From Peptostreptococcus canis (GTDB lineage: Bacteria; Bacillota; Clostridia; Peptostreptococcales; Peptostreptococcaceae), in the NCBI RefSeq assembly GCF_014229965.1, contig NZ_JABGBW010000001.1, positions 263,769-327,768 of the forward strand: 64,000 nt of DNA, written 5' to 3'. Under the pieces are notes generated by a model that was not told the DNA's origin, did not search any database, and saw only the letters and a program-made list of their open reading frames with translations. Both the position numbers and the translations under genes were made by a program. Below, piece by piece: positions 19,868 through 28,356 of the stretch; the first letter of the stretch is position 1; each line of letters opens with the position of its first letter.

Positions 19868-19924
19868 AAACTAAAATAAAAAAAGCCATTTATATTTTTA
19901 TTGTGGCTTTTTTTATTTTAGTTT
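19868..19924 (-). terminator. Terminator of the AraC-family gene (21-bp perfect stem)
   Basis: Arms 19868-19888 and 19904-19924 are fully complementary (core AAAAAAAGCCA/TGGCTTTTTTT), with a 15-nt loop. It overlaps the stop codon of the regulator gene and would end transcription from either side. Confidence 0.9.
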
Positions 19925-20606
19925 ATTCCACCATACCGGATAAAGCATGATTTTTTCTAAAAATACCAGGAGACATACCCGTGTGTGAGGTAAATACAGT
20001 TGAAAAATATGAAGCTGAGCCAAATCCACAAGCAGAACTAATTACTTCCATGGTTTTATTGGTTTGGAGTAAAAGAAGCTTTGCATGATGAATTCTGTGT
20101 TGTGCAAGGTATGAGGTAAAACTTTGCCCCATATGTTTTTTAAAAGTTTGAGACAAATAAGTACTGTTTATGTGCAATATATCTGCAATATCACCTATTA
20201 ATATTTGTTTGCCTATATTTTCTTCTATATAATCTATTACACTTTGAACTAAAGGATTTCGTGAAACTATTTGCATATCAATCATTTCAGAATAATATGA
20301 GTCTATAATACTTTTTGAAATTTTCATAAATGTATCCTTATCAAGATGATTATGCATAAGTAAAATATTTGCATAACAGCATTTTGTAAGGGATATATCA
20401 TATATAAACAGTAAATAATGGTATATACTGTAGTTTAGATTATTCAAGGCCAATCTATAGCCGATAGTATTATTAAATCCAACCAGTTTCTTAGTTCTTA
20501 AAATAAAGTGATCATACGCTTCTTGGTGTTTGCCTTTGCATAAATCTTCACATAAAACTTTATAATCTAAATGAAGATCGAATTTATCCAAATTGATTAG
20601 TTCCAT
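19923..20606 (-). CDS. AraC-family transcriptional regulator
   Basis: A 227-residue regulator. Residues ~120-225 hold the paired helix-turn-helix DNA-binding domain: IGDIADILHINSTYLSQTFKKHMG, then LLLQTNKTMEVISSACGFGSASYFSTVFTSHTG, followed by SPGIFRKNH, the usual family ending. The N-terminal ~115 residues are helical and match no ligand-binding domain I recognise. It is transcribed away from the heme-uptake genes across a 315-bp shared intergenic region, so it may control them, itself, or both; that is inference from layout. Confidence 0.9.
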   Translation of the reverse strand: MELINLDKFDLHLDYKVLCEDLCKGKHQEAYDHFILRTKKLVGFNNTIGYRLALNNLNYSIYHYLLFIYDISLTKCCYANILLMHNHLDKDTFMKISKSIIDSYYSEMIDMQIVSRNPLVQSVIDYIEENIGKQILIGDIADILHINSTYLSQTFKKHMGQSFTSYLAQHRIHHAKLLLLQTNKTMEVISSACGFGSASYFSTVFTSHTGMSPGIFRKNHALSGMVE

Positions 20607-20921: not shown

Positions 20922-22913
20922 ATGCAGAATCAAAACAAAAGATTTTTAATAAATATTAACTATCTAGTGATATTGTTTTTAGTAGTAGGAATATTGGTAT
21001 CTAGTTTTTCTTTTTTCAAGTCACATGCAGAAAATATACCAGATGGGAATTATAAAATTCCGATAACATTAATGCACAAATATGATGAAGTAAATTCAAT
21101 GGGAAATAATGCTATAGTTCAGTATGGTATTTTAAAGGTTAGAAATGGAAAACCTACCATGAAAGTAAGATTTGTCGCTTTAACTTTTCTTAATTTTACA
21201 GGATATTTGAGTGAATTTTTAGTTGATAATAAACCTGTAAATATATTATCTACCTATGATATATATGATGGTTACAATCACCCTGAAACAGGTAAGGATA
21301 AAAGATTTAAAGGTAAAAAATATCCCAAAGATATGGAGTTTGATATTGAAATAGGAGCTAGAGACATTCCCGTACATGTATATGTTCCGGTAATGGGAGA
21401 ATTGGCGAGTGGAGATCAGGATGCCAGATTAAGAATAAATTGGCCAAATAATTATAATGCCGTTAAAATATCAGGCGAAAGTTTTGACGAAGATTCATCT
21501 ACATCATCAGCTGATGCTCCTAGTATTTCAGAAGATGATTTAATAAATCGGGCTTTTGGATCAAAGGATAATAGAAACTTACCAGTGCTTGAAAAGGGTG
21601 AAAAAATATCTTTGGAAAATGGTCATTATTCTGTAAAAGTATCACTTTATCATGAGCGTGAAGAAAAGGATTCTATGGGTAATGCAGCAATGATACATGA
21701 TGGAGAATTATATGTCAAAGATGGAAAAGCTAAAATGCTTATTGGAAGTGATAAAATGAGTTTACAAGGAATAATTGCTTCTTTGGTATCACTGCAAATT
21801 AGAGATGATAATGCCTACTATCATTTTGCTCAACCACATGCTTTTGATTTATCAATTCCCGGAGAACAAGATAAAAGACCGGAAGTATTTAGTTTTGATA
21901 TAGAAAGAAAAGATCCAATGATTTATGTAAAAGTGGATCCAAAAGTTAAACCTATGGGAGAAATACCCGTAGGTGCAAGATTGAAATTCGATTGGAATAC
22001 ATTGAGAAAAATAGATAGGTCTGAAACTATTTTATATAAAAAAATGATAAATGGTACTCCTAGAAAAAAATTTAATCCAAATGAGAAATTATACAAGGTT
22101 GTAGATGGAATTGAATTATTTGGACCACCAAGTTCATTTAATGAAAATGTAAGTTTTAAAGTAAATAAAATACAAGGGGGAGCCAATTATTTAAAAATCG
22201 TTAAATCTGTTGGAAGGACTACAGCTATACATATGTATGAATTTAAAGTAGAGAATGATTTTGGTATTCCTATGAAGGCAAAAAAAGACGTAAAAATAAA
22301 AATTAAACTTCCTGTTGGAATAAAATCTATAAAGGCTATAAGAGCATCAGATATGAGTGAACTAAAATCTGAGGTATCAGGTGGATATGCGACTTTAACA
22401 TTGAGAAAATTTGGAGAAATAGCATTGGTTGATACGAGTTCGGGGAAAGGTAGTAGGAATGTAGCGACTCCTTCTAATAGAAACGGAGTATCTTCACCAA
22501 ATAGAAATACAAAAAGAAGTGCTAATAATTTAAAATCAAAAAATACATCTGGGAAAAGCTCTTCAAACAATAAAAAAAATAATAGTAATAATAATCGAAA
22601 TAGTGATGGTGATTCAGATAAAAAAAATACACCTATTAGTTTAACTAATGATGATAGTAATTTCAATGAATCCATTAAGAATCAAGATAATTTGGATACA
22701 GAGGAAAATAAAAATAATATTCAAAATTATGAGCCTAAAGAAAATGCTAAAGTTCTGTTCTTCTCGATATTACTTTTATTGGCTTGTGGTGGGTTAGCAG
22801 GTTACTCATATATCAAGTTTGGGAAAAGTTTATTATATGAAATACAACTTGGTGAGCAATTGAAAGAAAAATTAAATGGTGTGAAAACTGTAAATGACAG
22901 AATTCAATATTAG
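20922..22913 (+). CDS. Membrane-anchored double-NEAT heme-binding surface protein
   Basis: A 663-residue exported protein. Order: signal or anchor segment (~14-36), NEAT 1 (~41-175), NEAT 2 (~233-360), a further beta-rich domain (~405-505), an Asn/Ser/Lys-rich spacer (~506-605), a membrane helix (~609-632) and a short basic tail. Both NEAT domains have the SMGN lip motif (M60, M252) and a Met in the beta7-beta8 region (VPVMGE, M158; VKPMGE, M345). The YxxxY heme-iron motif of IsdA/IsdC-type domains is missing in both. NEAT proteins take heme from host hemoproteins. It opens an operon with an Shp-like protein and a heme ABC transporter, the place held by Shr in streptococci, though it lacks Shr's leucine-rich and DUF1533 parts. 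There is no LPXTG signal; it should stay in the membrane and reach outward through the spacer. Confidence 0.88.
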   Translation: MQNQNKRFLININYLVILFLVVGILVSSFSFFKSHAENIPDGNYKIPITLMHKYDEVNSMGNNAIVQYGILKVRNGKPTMKVRFVALTFLNFTGYLSEFLVDNKPVNILSTYDIYDGYNHPETGKDKRFKGKKYPKDMEFDIEIGARDIPVHVYVPVMGELASGDQDARLRINWPNNYNAVKISGESFDEDSSTSSADAPSISEDDLINRAFGSKDNRNLPVLEKGEKISLENGHYSVKVSLYHEREEKDSMGNAAMIHDGELYVKDGKAKMLIGSDKMSLQGIIASLVSLQIRDDNAYYHFAQPHAFDLSIPGEQDKRPEVFSFDIERKDPMIYVKVDPKVKPMGEIPVGARLKFDWNTLRKIDRSETILYKKMINGTPRKKFNPNEKLYKVVDGIELFGPPSSFNENVSFKVNKIQGGANYLKIVKSVGRTTAIHMYEFKVENDFGIPMKAKKDVKIKIKLPVGIKSIKAIRASDMSELKSEVSGGYATLTLRKFGEIALVDTSSGKGSRNVATPSNRNGVSSPNRNTKRSANNLKSKNTSGKSSSNNKKNNSNNNRNSDGDSDKKNTPISLTNDDSNFNESIKNQDNLDTEENKNNIQNYEPKENAKVLFFSILLLLACGGLAGYSYIKFGKSLLYEIQLGEQLKEKLNGVKTVNDRIQY

Positions 22914-22930
22914 AAAAAGGAGGTTAGAAC

Positions 22931-24070
22931 ATGGTAAATAATAATTTAAAAAAGTTCAGTGCCTTTCTTTTGGTAATATGCTTTATATTTTGTCTTTATG
23001 GAAAAGCAGAGGCTGCAGAAGTATACACGGCAGAAGCAAGAGGGTACTATAAACATCCCGTAACTGGAGAAATAGAAGATTCAGGAAACAATCCTGGAAT
23101 TGGGGATGGTATGGTAAGTAATACAGTATATGGTTTAGCGCTGATAGAGAAAGATGATAACGGAAAATTGTATGCAACAGTAAGATTAAATTTGAGAGAT
23201 AAAATAGAAAATATTAAATTTTGGGTTCAAAATAGAGGTGACAACGGATTTGCACCAGTATCATCTGAAGAAACTGCAAATACAGGTCCAACAGGGGATT
23301 TTAGATTTGAAATACCAAACACGGAATGTGTAGTAAGATCCAGTTTTTTTGTTGGACCGATGTCAAGAGATGTGATCTTTTATATAGATTTTTCGTCTTT
23401 GGAGAGTGGAAGTGGTGACTTTAAAGTAATGGTAAATGTATCCGGGGATACATCTACCAATAGGCAAAACGATCGTACAGGAGAGGTAACAGCTCCAACA
23501 CAAGCATCAGTGAGATCAAGTTCAGGTAATGCAAATTCATCTGGGAATAGTTCAAATTCTTCTCCAAATAACACAAGTAGGAATACGAATAAAAATAGCA
23601 AAAATACAAATAAAAATATTAATACAGGCCAAAAATTGAGTCAAAAGAATAAAAAAATAGATCTTCCTCATGGCCAAGGAGTAGTAGGGAATAATGGAGA
23701 AAAAAATGATTCTGCAAATAAAAAAATAAACCAGTCGGATTTAGGTTATGAGCATGGTTTACTTACCAACAAGGATTTTGATGATTCACAAACCTTATTC
23801 GGAACTACTCAAGAGAATGAATCAAATCATCCCTGGGGACCCTTTACTAAGGCTGTATTTACAATTGTTATAGTAATTATAGGTATTTTATTTAGCATAT
23901 TTTTGCTTGGCGGTGGTTCAGTAGCATTTCTATATCATTATAAAAAAAGAAATAATCTGGCTATTGAAGAGATTTTAAGTTCGGCAAATAGCAAATCTGT
24001 AGCAAAAAAGAATGTGGATAACTGGAATGGAAAATATAGAGTAAATAAGGATGGTGGTGCAAATGTATAA
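22931..24070 (+). CDS. Shp-like heme-binding cell-surface protein
   Basis: A 379-residue exported protein. Signal peptide ~1-29 (cleavage near AEA-AE). Residues ~30-180 match the streptococcal Shp heme-binding domain: ARGYYKHPVTGEIEDSG, GDGMVSNTVY and FFVGPMSRDVIFYIDF. M61 and M144 fall where Shp has its two axial methionine ligands (83 apart here, 87 in Shp). A Ser/Asn/Lys-rich spacer (~190-235) follows, then a hydrophilic stretch, a membrane helix (~303-327) and a cytoplasmic tail. Shp hands heme to the HtsA lipoprotein, and the htsA-type gene follows directly, overlapping by 8 bp. It begins 17 bp after the NEAT gene behind AAGGAGG. Confidence 0.88.
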   Translation: MVNNNLKKFSAFLLVICFIFCLYGKAEAAEVYTAEARGYYKHPVTGEIEDSGNNPGIGDGMVSNTVYGLALIEKDDNGKLYATVRLNLRDKIENIKFWVQNRGDNGFAPVSSEETANTGPTGDFRFEIPNTECVVRSSFFVGPMSRDVIFYIDFSSLESGSGDFKVMVNVSGDTSTNRQNDRTGEVTAPTQASVRSSSGNANSSGNSSNSSPNNTSRNTNKNSKNTNKNINTGQKLSQKNKKIDLPHGQGVVGNNGEKNDSANKKINQSDLGYEHGLLTNKDFDDSQTLFGTTQENESNHPWGPFTKAVFTIVIVIIGILFSIFLLGGGSVAFLYHYKKRNNLAIEEILSSANSKSVAKKNVDNWNGKYRVNKDGGANV

Positions 24071-24989
24071 TATTGTGAAAAAGATAATGGCTTTTTCTCT
24101 ACTGATTTGTATCATTATCATTGGAAATTCGGGTTGTGTAAATCAACATCCGGAAGGTGATAAAAAAACGGTAATAAATGATTTAAGGCAAATACCAACT
24201 TTAAAAAATCCAAGAGTCGTTGCGACTTCTATGGCAACAGTAGAAATAATGGAAAAGTTGAATGTGGACCTAGTTGGAGTTCCTGATAGTAAAATTTCGA
24301 AAATGCCGGGAAAGTATAAAAATGTGACTAAAGTTGGGATGGCTATGGCTCCTGATATAGAAATAGTAAAGGGATTAAATCCTGACTGGATATTTAGTCC
24401 CGTGAGCTTAATTAGTGATTTACAGCCAAAATACTCAAATGCAAATTTAAGATACGGATTTCTCAACTTGAATAATATACCAGGAATGTATAAATCGATA
24501 AAAGATTTAGGTATAATTTTGGACAGGGAAGCCGAAGCAGACAAGTTGATTAAAGATTATGAAGATTTTATGAAAGATTATAAGGAAAAGCATAAAGGAA
24601 AAAAGAAATCGAGAGTTTTGGTATTGATGGGGCTACCCGGAAGTTATATAGTAGCTACTAACCAATCCTATGTAGGCTCTTTAGTGGAACTTGCAGGTGC
24701 GGAAAATGTATACACTTCAAATTCAGATCAATTTTTAAATATAAATACTGAGGATATGTTGAAGAAAAACCCGGACATTATTTTGAGAACAGCTCATGCA
24801 CTTCCGGATGATGTCCAAAAAATGTTCAATGATGAATTTAAAAATAATGATATTTGGTCGCACTTTGATGCAGTAAAAAATAATAAGGTATATGATTTAG
24901 ATTATAAGGCATTTGGTATGTCGGCGAAATTTAACTATCCAAAGGCACTTAAGGACTTAGATAGTATTCTATATGGAGGTGATAAATAG
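24063..24989 (+). CDS. Heme ABC transporter substrate-binding lipoprotein (HtsA/SiaA/IsdE type)
   Basis: A 308-residue lipoprotein. The signal peptide ends in the lipobox GNSG|C at Cys25. The body is a class III periplasmic-binding fold with the long helical backbone. M95 in VGMAMAPDIEIV and H245 in LRTAHALPDDV sit where IsdE/SiaA have their Met and His heme ligands. ATG at 24063 is preferred over the in-frame openings at 24051/24054 because a GGTGG-like site precedes it; this makes an 8-bp overlap with the shp-like gene. It passes heme to the FecCD permease whose GTG start overlaps its stop by one base. Confidence 0.88.
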   Translation: MYNIVKKIMAFSLLICIIIIGNSGCVNQHPEGDKKTVINDLRQIPTLKNPRVVATSMATVEIMEKLNVDLVGVPDSKISKMPGKYKNVTKVGMAMAPDIEIVKGLNPDWIFSPVSLISDLQPKYSNANLRYGFLNLNNIPGMYKSIKDLGIILDREAEADKLIKDYEDFMKDYKEKHKGKKKSRVLVLMGLPGSYIVATNQSYVGSLVELAGAENVYTSNSDQFLNINTEDMLKKNPDIILRTAHALPDDVQKMFNDEFKNNDIWSHFDAVKNNKVYDLDYKAFGMSAKFNYPKALKDLDSILYGGDK

Positions 24990-26053
24990 TGGGTAGTTTT
25001 ACCTTGAGAGAAAAAATAGCAAGGATTCTTTTAGGATCAGATACCAGAGGATTTGCTATAAACAATAAAAGAAAAACGATGATATTTTCAGTTACAATTT
25101 TATTACTGATAATAATATTCTTTTTTTCTGTTAAAGCAGGAAGTCTGAAAGTCTCTTTTGGCCAACTGATACATGGACTGTTTATACAAAGAAACCCAGA
25201 TGTAGCTACTATTTGGGATTTGAGATTTCCCAGAGTGATAATAGCTATGCTTGCAGGTGCAGGTATTTCAGTATCGGGTGCACTTTTGCAGGCAGTGATG
25301 AAAAACCCTTTAACAGATCCTGGTATTATAGGAATATCATCTGCAGCATCTTTGGCAGCAGTATTAATAGCGACATTTGTTCCAGCGCTATACTTTTCAA
25401 TTCCATTTTTTGCTGTTTTAGGAGGGCTGGGAGCATATCTATTAATATATTCACTTGCTTGGGATGGCGGTGTAAATCCTGTAAAACTTGTTTTAGTAGG
25501 GGTTGCTTTAAATATGACTTTTGTTGGATTAGGAGAGTTTTTTAAGGCTGCAGGTGGTCAAGGTTCTAATCTTTCCAAAGTTCAATCTATTATAGAAGGG
25601 AATATAGCGCAAAAAACATGGGCTGATGTCAATATGTTATTCTGGTATGTAATTATCGGTTTAATAGTAGCAATGTTGTTATCCAAAAAGTGTAATATTC
25701 TTTCTTTGGAGGATAAAACGGCGAGAGGACTTGGAGTAAATGTCGATAGAGATAGATTTATAGTTGCGTTAGTAGGAATAGTAATAGTAAGTATATCTAC
25801 AGCAACTGTTGGAGTAATAGGGTTTTTAGGATTGATAGTTCCACATATTGCAAAACTTTTAGTAGGTAGTGATCACAGGATAAAATTGCCATATACCATG
25901 GTTTTAGGGGCTTTAGTTTTACTGATTTCAGATACAGTTGGAAGACTTATATTCGCTCCGTATGAAATCCCAGCAGCTATTATAATGGCAGTAATTGGAG
26001 GTCCTTTCTTCATCTTCTTGTTGAGAAGAGGAGGTGATAGTTTTGGAAGTTAA
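24989..26053 (+). CDS. Heme/iron ABC transporter permease (FecCD family, HtsB type)
   Basis: A 354-residue permease with about ten membrane segments. Motifs: DLRFPRVIIAMLAGAGISVSG, MKNPLTDPGIIGISSAASLA, TVGVIGFLGLIVPHIAK (the coupling region to the ATPase) and GRLIFAPYEIPAAII at the end, all typical of BtuC/FecCD/HtsB. GTG start at 24989, one base overlap with the lipoprotein stop, so translation is coupled. It works as a homodimer with the ATPase encoded next. Confidence 0.93.
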   Translation: MGSFTLREKIARILLGSDTRGFAINNKRKTMIFSVTILLLIIIFFFSVKAGSLKVSFGQLIHGLFIQRNPDVATIWDLRFPRVIIAMLAGAGISVSGALLQAVMKNPLTDPGIIGISSAASLAAVLIATFVPALYFSIPFFAVLGGLGAYLLIYSLAWDGGVNPVKLVLVGVALNMTFVGLGEFFKAAGGQGSNLSKVQSIIEGNIAQKTWADVNMLFWYVIIGLIVAMLLSKKCNILSLEDKTARGLGVNVDRDRFIVALVGIVIVSISTATVGVIGFLGLIVPHIAKLLVGSDHRIKLPYTMVLGALVLLISDTVGRLIFAPYEIPAAIIMAVIGGPFFIFLLRRGGDSFGS

Positions 26054-26807
26054 GAATTTAAGTTTTTCATACACAAAAGACTCACCATTAATAATAAATA
26101 ATATATCATTCGGAATTGAAGAGGGAAAAATAACAACTATTCTTGGTCCTAATGGATGTGGCAAATCTACATTATTCTATCTTATGACAAAGAATTTGAG
26201 TCCAAGACATGGAGAAGTTGTTTTAGGATATAGAAAAATAGATTCCATGACTAATAGGGAATTTGCAAAAAAAGTAGCCATAGTCCACCAATACAATAAG
26301 GTTGCAAATGATATAACAGTGAGACAATTAGTGAGCTATGGCAGAACTCCTTATCAAGCCATGATGAAACGTCAAAGTGACGAGGATGATAAAATGATAG
26401 ATTGGGCAATAAGCGTAACCGACCTGGAAGATGTCAGAGATAGAACCGTCAATTCAATGTCCGGCGGGCAAAAGCAAAGAGTTTGGATTGCTATGGCTCT
26501 TGCACAAGGAACGGAGTACCTATTTCTAGATGAGCCTACTACATATTTAGATATTAAGTATCAGTTGGAAACATTAAAATTGGTAAGAAGATTAAATAGA
26601 GAACTTGGAATCACGATAATCATGGTTCTTCATGACATAAATCAAGCAATTGCGTATTCAGACACAATTATAGGTTTAAAAAATGGAAAAATATTAATTA
26701 ATGGAGAGCCAAATTCGGTTATTACAGAAGATGTAATAGAGTCTCTTTATGGAGTCAAGTTAAAAATTGCCAATATAGATGGCAATAAAGTCATAATGAA
26801 TATATAG
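26043..26807 (+). CDS. Heme/iron ABC transporter ATP-binding protein (HtsC type)
   Basis: A 254-residue ATPase of the FepC/HtsC family: Walker A GPNGCGKST, YGRTPY motif after the Q-loop, signature MSGGQKQRVWIAMALAQG, Walker B YLFLDEPTTYLDI and switch MVLHDINQA. The start is taken as TTG 26043, 8 bp after AGGAGG; a GTG at 26034 overlaps that site. It overlaps the permease gene by 11 bp and completes the importer. Confidence 0.93.
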   Translation: MEVKNLSFSYTKDSPLIINNISFGIEEGKITTILGPNGCGKSTLFYLMTKNLSPRHGEVVLGYRKIDSMTNREFAKKVAIVHQYNKVANDITVRQLVSYGRTPYQAMMKRQSDEDDKMIDWAISVTDLEDVRDRTVNSMSGGQKQRVWIAMALAQGTEYLFLDEPTTYLDIKYQLETLKLVRRLNRELGITIIMVLHDINQAIAYSDTIIGLKNGKILINGEPNSVITEDVIESLYGVKLKIANIDGNKVIMNI

Positions 26808-26895
26808 TCACATTTGTGAAAATATATTGATATAAATTATCTTTTATTAAAAAAGTAATAACTAATAATTAATTAAAAATTTTGGAGGTATAAAA

Positions 26896-28356
26896 ATGAA
26901 TAAGTTATTTAAGAAAACAATGACAGTGTCAATGGCTGCTGTATCAGCAGTTTCAGTAAGTGGTTTAGGAAATATTGCACTAGCAGAGTCTGCAGTAGAA
27001 TATTCAGTTCCTGTAAAACTTATGAATGCAAATGAAAATAAACCATCAATGGGAAATGAAGCATTAGATGGACCGGCAAGAGTTGTTGTGAAAGATGGAA
27101 AAGCATCTATTTATCTAACAGTTAAGGGATTAAGTTTCCTTAACATGTATGGTCATCTATGGGGTGCAAGTGCATTCGAATCAGATGCCAATTCAAATGA
27201 AACACCAGCTATAGTTGAAAAAACTTTTAAAGATAAAGACTTAGAAGGAAAAGAGAGAGTTTTTCCAAAGGTATTAAAATTTGAAAGAAATAAAACTGAT
27301 GAGAGTGAAATTCTAATAAAAGTTGAAGTTGATGCAATGGATGCTATTAGTAGTGGCGGTGCGACATCATATGAAAATATAAAGAAAGGTTCAGGCGCAC
27401 AAAAAGCTAAGTTAGTTCTAGATTATAGCAATGCTAAAAAAATTGAAATTCCTAATCAAGAACCGGGGGATGTAACAAGAATAAGTGGTTCAAATAGATA
27501 TGCTACAGCAGCGAAAATAAGTGAATCAAGTTTTGAAAATGCAGATACAGTAGTATTGGCAAACGGATATAAAGAGGCCGATGCACTAGCAGCATCTCCT
27601 ATGGCAACTTTATATAAAGCTCCTATTTTATTATCAGATACTAATAAATTGCCAGCAGAGACTAAAAATGAAATAAAGAGATTAAATGCAAAGAAAGTTT
27701 TAATAACTGGTGGATTAGGATCTGTATCTAGTGAAGTAGAGTCCACTTTAAAATCAATGGGACTAAATGTAGAAAGAGTTTCTGGTAATAACAGATATAA
27801 AACTTCTATAGAGATTGCTAAAAAGATAAGAAATATTTCGAAAGATAATTCTTCAGCAGTTTTAGTAAATGGTCGTAATTTTGCAGATGCATTGGCAGTA
27901 TCATCATTAGCATCCAGAAAGAGTGCACCGATCTTACTTACTGAATCTAATATGCTAAATTCAGATACTAAGAAAGCCTTGGATGAATGGAATTTAAATA
28001 GCGTTACTATTGTTGGTGGAAAATCATCTGTAAGTGATACTGTTATGAACAATGTAAAATCTAATTCAAAGAGTAGAATTGCAGGTTCTAATAGGTTTGC
28101 TACTTCTGTAGCGGTTGCAAAGGCTGCATTCCCAGAGGCGAAATCTATAATAGTTGCAAATGGTTTAAAAGCTGCAGATGCATTGGCAGCAGGTGCGATT
28201 TCCGTTAAAAAATCTAGTCCTGTAGTATTAGTTGACGGAAGAAATATTTCAAATGACTTATCAGCATTTGTAAAAGGAAACGGGATTTCTAAAGTTCTTA
28301 TTGTTGGTGGAATGAATTCCGTTGGAAATGAAATACAGAATAATATTTTAAAATAA
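26896..28356 (+). CDS. NEAT-domain protein anchored by three CWB2 cell-wall-binding repeats
   Basis: A 486-residue secreted wall protein. Signal peptide 1-30 (ALA|ES). NEAT domain ~35-178, with SMGN (M52) and VDAMDA (M148) and no YxxxY. Then three CWB2 (PF04122-type) repeats, ~195-290, ~294-388 and ~392-486; each opens with R(I/V)(S/A)G(S/N)(N)RYxT or RFAT, holds an ANG..ADALAA core and ends in a VGG.. or TGG.. turn. In C. difficile three CWB2 copies fix Cwp proteins to the anionic wall polymer PSII. There is no membrane helix or sortase signal. It lies 88 bp after the heme ATPase behind GGAGG and is followed by a strong terminator, so it is likely the last gene of the heme island. Probable role: outermost heme receptor. 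Confidence 0.92.
   Translation: MNKLFKKTMTVSMAAVSAVSVSGLGNIALAESAVEYSVPVKLMNANENKPSMGNEALDGPARVVVKDGKASIYLTVKGLSFLNMYGHLWGASAFESDANSNETPAIVEKTFKDKDLEGKERVFPKVLKFERNKTDESEILIKVEVDAMDAISSGGATSYENIKKGSGAQKAKLVLDYSNAKKIEIPNQEPGDVTRISGSNRYATAAKISESSFENADTVVLANGYKEADALAASPMATLYKAPILLSDTNKLPAETKNEIKRLNAKKVLITGGLGSVSSEVESTLKSMGLNVERVSGNNRYKTSIEIAKKIRNISKDNSSAVLVNGRNFADALAVSSLASRKSAPILLTESNMLNSDTKKALDEWNLNSVTIVGGKSSVSDTVMNNVKSNSKSRIAGSNRFATSVAVAKAAFPEAKSIIVANGLKAADALAAGAISVKKSSPVVLVDGRNISNDLSAFVKGNGISKVLIVGGMNSVGNEIQNNILK

Follow-up and report, generated by a model that had tools for sequence, protein, structure and literature searches.

The question raised by this locus is how an anaerobe of the Clostridia may hold heme on its surface with NEAT domains that lack the YxxxY tyrosine pair of the Isd systems. 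The window, i.e. the whole stretch of DNA analysed, comprises 64,000 nucleotides of Peptostreptococcus canis (contig NZ_JABGBW010000001.1, forward strand positions 263,769 to 327,768), and the cluster in question occupies its plus strand at 20922-28356, where the genes of a two-NEAT protein, a Shp-like protein, an IsdE/HtsA-like lipoprotein, a FecCD permease, an ATPase and a NEAT-CWB2 protein follow each other. Judged from its sequence, this cluster very probably codes for a relay of heme uptake that would hold the iron by methionine at every surface step, and its surface proteins probably grip heme between two methionines in each of the three NEAT domains, termed N1 to N3 here.

N1 (residues 37-182, 21030..21467) and N2 (residues 230-366, 21609..22019) belong to the two-NEAT surface protein of 663 residues (20922..22913; Pfam NEAT, 2.9e-09), and N3 (26980..27474) to the NEAT-CWB2 wall protein of 486 residues (26896..28356; NEAT, 4.1e-08); both proteins pass the curated cut-off of the NEAT family (PF05031, 32.8 bits) with 37.8 and 34.1 bits. 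A sequence-only reading of this DNA had assigned a methionine pair to each domain, M60/M158 and M252/M345 in the first protein and M52/M148 in the second, spaced by 93-98 residues. These positions proved to be exact when the codons were read back (21099..21101 and 21393..21395 for N1, 21675..21677 and 21954..21956 for N2, 27049..27051 and 27337..27339 for N3), the spacings being 98, 93 and 96 residues. The first methionine, the candidate distal ligand, sits in SMGN in all three domains, as had been claimed, and the second, the candidate proximal ligand, lies in VPVM, VKPM and VDAM, respectively. A motif check likewise found YxxxY in neither NEAT protein, hence in none of the three domains. The residues facing the two tyrosines had been given as A/Q, G/V and G/Q; the absence of tyrosine held, but the exact residues cannot be fixed because the length of the strand 7-8 loop differs, with L/gap, I/gap and I/G obtained in one alignment, G/A, I/A and G/A in another, and tyrosine in neither.

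The pairs can be set beside the solved structures of Shr from Streptococcus pyogenes. Each of the two NEAT domains of Shr holds heme by two methionines, M390/M475 in NEAT1, which the sequence-only reading had named correctly as a two-methionine domain, and M997/M1107 in NEAT2; upon mutation of both methionines, NEAT1 loses heme binding, an effect that comes mainly from its second methionine, and that of NEAT2 falls drastically (PMC12796733). The serine of the first motif hydrogen-bonds a heme propionate in Shr NEAT1 (PMC12796733). A single-sequence search with the two-NEAT protein returned one solved chain, 9W5Y of Shr NEAT2 (E=0.0013), and placed M60 and M158 on the methionines of its SMSN and VPIM motifs; counted on this alignment, the latter are 110 residues apart, the same distance as between Met997 and Met1107. 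Profiles built from 26 N1-type rows and 36 N3-type rows matched 9W5Y at E=4.2e-28 and E=4e-27, again with both methionines on SMSN and VPIM, and tyrosine-type chains ranked after it at 2.5e-6 or weaker. The alignment with Shr NEAT domains, which had been proposed as a check, places the methionine pairs of N1 and N3 on the crystallographic ligand pair of NEAT2, and by this alignment both domains are of the Shr type. N2 is assigned to it only via N3, with whose second methionine M345 was aligned in a profile-profile comparison by hhalign (probability 99.8).

Conservation within the three domain types falls on the same residues. In the N1-type alignment A6 (26 rows), the serine and methionine of the first motif and the valine, proline and methionine of the second are invariant, SMGN and MG are invariant in the N2-type alignment A5 (21 rows), and the N3-type alignment A4 (36 rows) has no invariant columns besides S, M, V and M, its other rows being 25-57% identical to the first. 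The rows of the three alignments were chosen manually among the 45 matches listed per type; besides the window, they represent 25 of 173 matches in A6, 20 of 101 in A5, and 33 of 177 plus two N1-type rows in A4. Among the unpicked similarity matches in the 80 named loci (L118-L197, to which all named-locus counts refer), both methionines were kept in 172/173 for N1, 100/101 for N2 and 175/177 for N3.

The wider survey comprised 520 NEAT-like domains from the window, its relatives and these 80 loci, which had been found through Shp. Three domains that were too short or contained unread bases were dropped, 86 Shp-type and 25 regulator-like domains were set aside by motif (one of the latter, L122:14343-15077, is not a regulator), and the remainder was clustered at 70% identity into 264 representatives, by which contigs sampled twice were merged (L118, L119 and L120 are G003, G001 and G008, L186 is L087, and L138 is L092). 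The NEAT profile had been seeded with the Met-type domains of the window, and tyrosine-type domains were still recovered. In the 264 domains, methionine stands at the two pair columns in 83% and 80% of the rows that are filled there; the next-richest column has 27%, and the median of the remaining 146 columns is 0.8%, so that the two methionine positions are far beyond chance. The named loci hold, counted without de-duplication, 259 further NEAT domains, 218 with both methionines, 13 with the second only, 12 with the first only and 16 with neither, and YxxxY was found in none of the 259. At least one full pair is present in 67 of the 68 named loci that have a further NEAT domain; the other 12 have none in the DNA examined. 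Correctly placed YxxxY motifs were seen only in L095 and L096, two genomes of the same phylum with Isd-like arrays, and L169 has a loose match well beyond the second methionine. Both methionines are also present in all 86 Shp domains recovered by the NEAT profile, a count to be read with the caveat that one of the two locus search patterns included the first methionine of Shp.

Within Peptostreptococcus, 41 of 46 non-Shp NEAT domains carry both methionines, and one of the other five is clipped by the end of its locus. NEAT domains were found at E<=0.001 in four of nine genomes of the genus, with only weak matches (E<=0.1) in four others, and the order of the two-NEAT, Shp and NEAT-CWB2 genes is the same in the three other carriers, P. 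anaerobius, P. sp. MV1 and P. russellii. Across 398 genomes of the phylum, Shp was detected in six (E<=1e-5) and NEAT in nine (E<=1e-6), all six being among the nine. Holders of the methionine pair include Peptostreptococcus, Peptoniphilus, Mediterraneibacter, Pseudoflavonifractor and others.

Several findings weigh against a methionine grip in all these domains. In other genera of the Peptostreptococcaceae, 29 of 61 NEAT domains are devoid of one or both methionines (both in 32, first only in 7, second only in 6, neither in 16), and although 12 of 17 loci have a full pair, five (L048, L111, L112, L115 and L116) lack any; therefore, other ligand sets exist in the family. The multi-NEAT proteins of these five loci contain no domain with a full methionine pair or YxxxY, so that their domains may use a third ligand set or may not bind heme. 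The bis-Met domain Shr NEAT1 (9W5Z) matched the N1 and N3 profiles only at 1.2e-4 and 0.0031, below some tyrosine-type chains. The N2-type profile (21 rows) covers only the first half of 9W5Y (E 7e-5), and M345 of N2 therefore has no place on the solved structure. Moreover, a tyrosine four residues before the second methionine, Y154 in N1, is invariant in all 26 N1-type rows.

Joint change of the two methionines was not seen either. Their association in the 264-domain set is strong (194/18/9/27; Fisher p 8e-17) but may reflect shared ancestry. When independent pairs were compared on a tree that FastTree had built from 223 domains without the two methionine columns, nine supported pairs gave a median p of 0.625, with on average 2.4 pairs changing in the same way, 0.6 in opposite ways and 6.0 showing no difference. 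As the tree-aware test was negative, we do not read the Fisher p as a sign of co-evolution, and the methionine pair is best seen as an old and strongly kept feature rather than as the product of repeated co-evolution.

The invariant tyrosine of the N1 type bears on an alternative in which, as in some Isd domains, the SMGN methionine is the only one of the pair that adjoins heme, the main ligand is a different residue, and the second methionine has a structural place in the strand 7-8 turn. IsdB, with Tyr440 and Met362 as heme ligands, provides a precedent. The first methionine does occur in tyrosine-type NEAT domains, such as SMMNQ in 4H8P, and three of the representatives have YxxxY and the first methionine without the second; a phenylalanine ligand together with a methionine-vinyl contact has also been proposed for a clostridial domain (PMC4143258). 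We nevertheless consider this alternative unlikely: the second methionine aligns with the iron-ligating Met1107 of Shr NEAT2, it is lost at most in 1/173, 1/101 and 2/177 of the N1, N2 and N3 matches, and the position of Y154 is tyrosine, phenylalanine or tryptophan in most Met-pair domains, often one of the latter two, and phenylalanine in 9W5Y. Still less probable is that the domains have lost heme binding and act in hemoglobin docking or as structural modules, with the methionines as relics. Both positions are indeed lost in some NEAT domains, namely in two domains of a wall protein encoded elsewhere in the same genome (L039), one of which has SH and PVF in place of SM and VxxM and has thus lost both ligand positions together, and in the 16 of 61 family domains mentioned above. 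Relic status is unlikely, however, because the methionines hardly vary in domains whose mean column identity has otherwise fallen to 30%; furthermore, related NEAT proteins without the tyrosines bind heme.

The preferred reading, two methionines in each domain and a relay of methionine ligands, extends to the neighbouring genes, as the linked Shp-like and IsdE-like genes keep ligand pairs of their own. The Shp-like protein (379 residues, 22931..24070; Pfam HemeBinding_Shp, PF11545, 1.6e-48), which ends in a hydrophobic segment (residues 301-336), carries M61 (codon 23111-23113) and M144 (codon 23360-23362), and both fall on methionines of Shp from S. pyogenes in the alignment with 2Q7A (E=7.5e-25), in agreement with the sequence-only reading. 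The lipoprotein (312 residues, 24051..24989) lies above the cut-off of the IsdE equivalog TIGR03659 (377 bits vs 298.65, E 5.5e-113). Its Met/His pair had been numbered M95/H245; the pair itself stands, but this numbering applies only to a start at 24063, and counting from 24051, the first ATG, gives M99 (codon 24345-24347) and H249 (codon 24795-24797). They align with a methionine and a histidine of Lmo2184 and IsdE, those of IsdE being its heme ligands. A FecCD-type permease (24989..26053; Pfam, 1.4e-89) and an ABC (ATP-binding cassette) transporter ATPase (26034..26807; Pfam ABC_tran, 1.1e-32; best NCBIfam match FecE, under its cut-off) complete the importer. The two NEAT proteins differ in their anchors. 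The first has a signal-like hydrophobic N-terminus and, in a hydropathy scan, a C-terminal hydrophobic segment (residues 607-631); a motif scan found no LPxTG or NPxTN in it. The NEAT-CWB2 protein ends in three CWB2 repeats as a wall anchor (27478..28353; Pfam CW_binding_2 in three stretches, 1.1e-58), with PDB matches to Cwp6, Cwp8 and S-layer proteins.

From these parts we propose that the CWB2-anchored protein would catch heme in the wall and that the membrane-anchored two-NEAT protein would bind it at the membrane, in each case between the SMGN methionine on the side of the 3-10 helix and the VxxM methionine on the side of strands 7-8. The NEAT proteins would hand heme to the Shp-like protein (Met61/Met144), which in turn would pass it to the lipoprotein (Met99/His249) and so to the ABC importer. 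The direction from wall to membrane is modelled on the transfer from Shr to Shp to HtsA, in which Shr NEAT1 passes heme to NEAT2 and both pass it to Shp with rising affinity (PMC12796733), and wall before membrane is the presumed order of the NEAT proteins. Heme binding by the window domains is likewise presumed; the tyrosine-less clostridial NEAT proteins ChtD and ChtE bind heme (PMC5026354). The domains may prefer ferrous heme, which would suit an anaerobe: according to the authors of the Shr structures, the neutral methionine is able to hold both ferrous and ferric heme, and signs of ferrous heme were seen in protein made in E. coli (PMC12796733).

Upstream of the cluster and divergent from it, an AraC-type regulator (19923..20606, minus strand; Pfam HTH_18, 2.7e-23) is a candidate for its control. 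In P. russellii, a homologue 58% identical to it immediately precedes the same cluster, but in the orientation of the cluster genes; the examined DNA of P. anaerobius and of P. sp. MV1 yielded none. A classical Fur box had no match in the window with up to three mismatches allowed. The radical SAM enzyme HutW of anaerobic heme degradation had no match over the cut-off in the nine Peptostreptococcus genomes, and therefore no heme-degrading enzyme is named here.

NEAT domains also occur in other protein contexts. Outside the window, the genome of P. canis encodes three more NEAT-CWB2 wall proteins (L037:5106-9695, L038:5373-9770 and L039:4435-9333) in open frames of 1466-1633 residues, one with leucine-rich repeats. 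In wall NEAT proteins of Peptoniphilus vaginalis, Urinicoccus and Aedoeadaptatus (L123:14849-18811, L128:14011-16047 and L155:13732-16788), SLH repeats take the place of CWB2. One NEAT subtype (L144:6887-9820 and L148:7571-9817, with seven similar domains in L147, L153, L156, L167, L172, L176 and L179) carries DHS[L] where the first ligand would lie and VPAM at the second position, which suggests His/Met coordination. Near shp in other genera, 23 open frames of 277-339 residues (22 distinct sequences) combine a helix-turn-helix (HTH)-like N-terminus with a C-terminal NEAT-like domain, e.g. L093:16518-17453, L158:1596-2486, L194:2184-3122 and L186:5953-6816, all on the plus strand, and 19 further ones. 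The first methionine is kept in all 23 (SM[AG]N or similar), and an MP[EHV]S motif is present in 22, with a histidine directly before it in 19. Among the 11 frames run against Pfam, an HTH family scored over the cut-off in three (L093, L158 and L194), an HTH or iron-repressor family below it in seven and none in L164; NEAT was found only below the cut-off, in three. With their MarR/DtxR-like HTH and, usually, HMPES, these proteins are possibly intracellular heme-sensing NEAT regulators; among the matches listed in the literature search, none described a NEAT regulator with a DtxR- or MarR-type HTH.

In comparison with known systems, the cluster resembles Shr-Shp-HtsABC of S. pyogenes in its two-Met NEAT domains, two-Met Shp and Met/His lipoprotein, and in having permease and ATPase downstream. 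This is also the streptococcal gene order. In contrast to the streptococcal system, the lipoprotein exceeds the IsdE cut-off, and a search of the window proteins for a Shr-like HID (PF07550) at E<=0.1 gave nothing, nor does any protein of the whole genome exceed the cut-off, the single match below it lying in another protein. The NEAT proteins themselves differ from Shr in consisting of two NEAT domains with a hydrophobic tail or of one with three CWB2 repeats, and the host is an anaerobe of the Clostridia. The Isd systems share the NEAT fold, the serine of the 3-10 helix and the IsdE-type lipoprotein, but rely on the YxxxY tyrosine pair that is missing in the window domains.

A further known system is the Cht locus of Clostridium perfringens (ChtA-E and Srt), which also has heme-binding NEAT proteins without the tyrosines; ChtE resembles Shp and keeps its methionines, ChtA keeps the Met/His pair of HtsA, and the locus differs from ours in including a sortase, a CWB2 anchor not being mentioned in the text examined (PMC5026354). 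The ligands of the ChtD NEAT domain were left open by the authors (PMC5026354), as was the ligand in a survey of 2014 that found all 51 of 51 clostridial-group domains without YxxxY and proposed phenylalanine and a methionine-vinyl contact (PMC4143258). The Shr study of 2025 regards methionine ligation as seemingly streptococcal and not as a feature of the NEAT domains of other Gram-positive bacteria (PMC12796733), which the methionine pair, as predicted here for the NEAT domains of many anaerobes, contradicts. Our literature search, which left most subscription journals outside, found in the text available no statement that clostridial NEAT domains, Shp-like ones apart, have a methionine pair, and no work on heme uptake or hemoglobin use in Peptostreptococcus; NEAT joined to CWB2 or another cell wall binding module was absent from the matches listed.

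The conserved pair answers the question of the clostridial NEAT ligand in a testable way for many anaerobes. Tentatively, and with somewhat more doubt than confidence, the NEAT heme relays of anaerobic Firmicutes may be regarded as using bis-Met ligation in general, adapted to ferrous heme all the way from the wall to the membrane, with streptococcal Shr and Shp as one branch, tyrosine-type NEAT domains as the form of oxygen-exposed Bacilli, and a Met-type NEAT domain moved onto a regulator as a heme sensor in several lineages. The choice of ligand may follow the redox state of the heme that is met. Compared across these systems, the wall anchor changes, from CWB2 in Peptostreptococcus to SLH in Peptoniphilus, while the predicted grip on heme stays.

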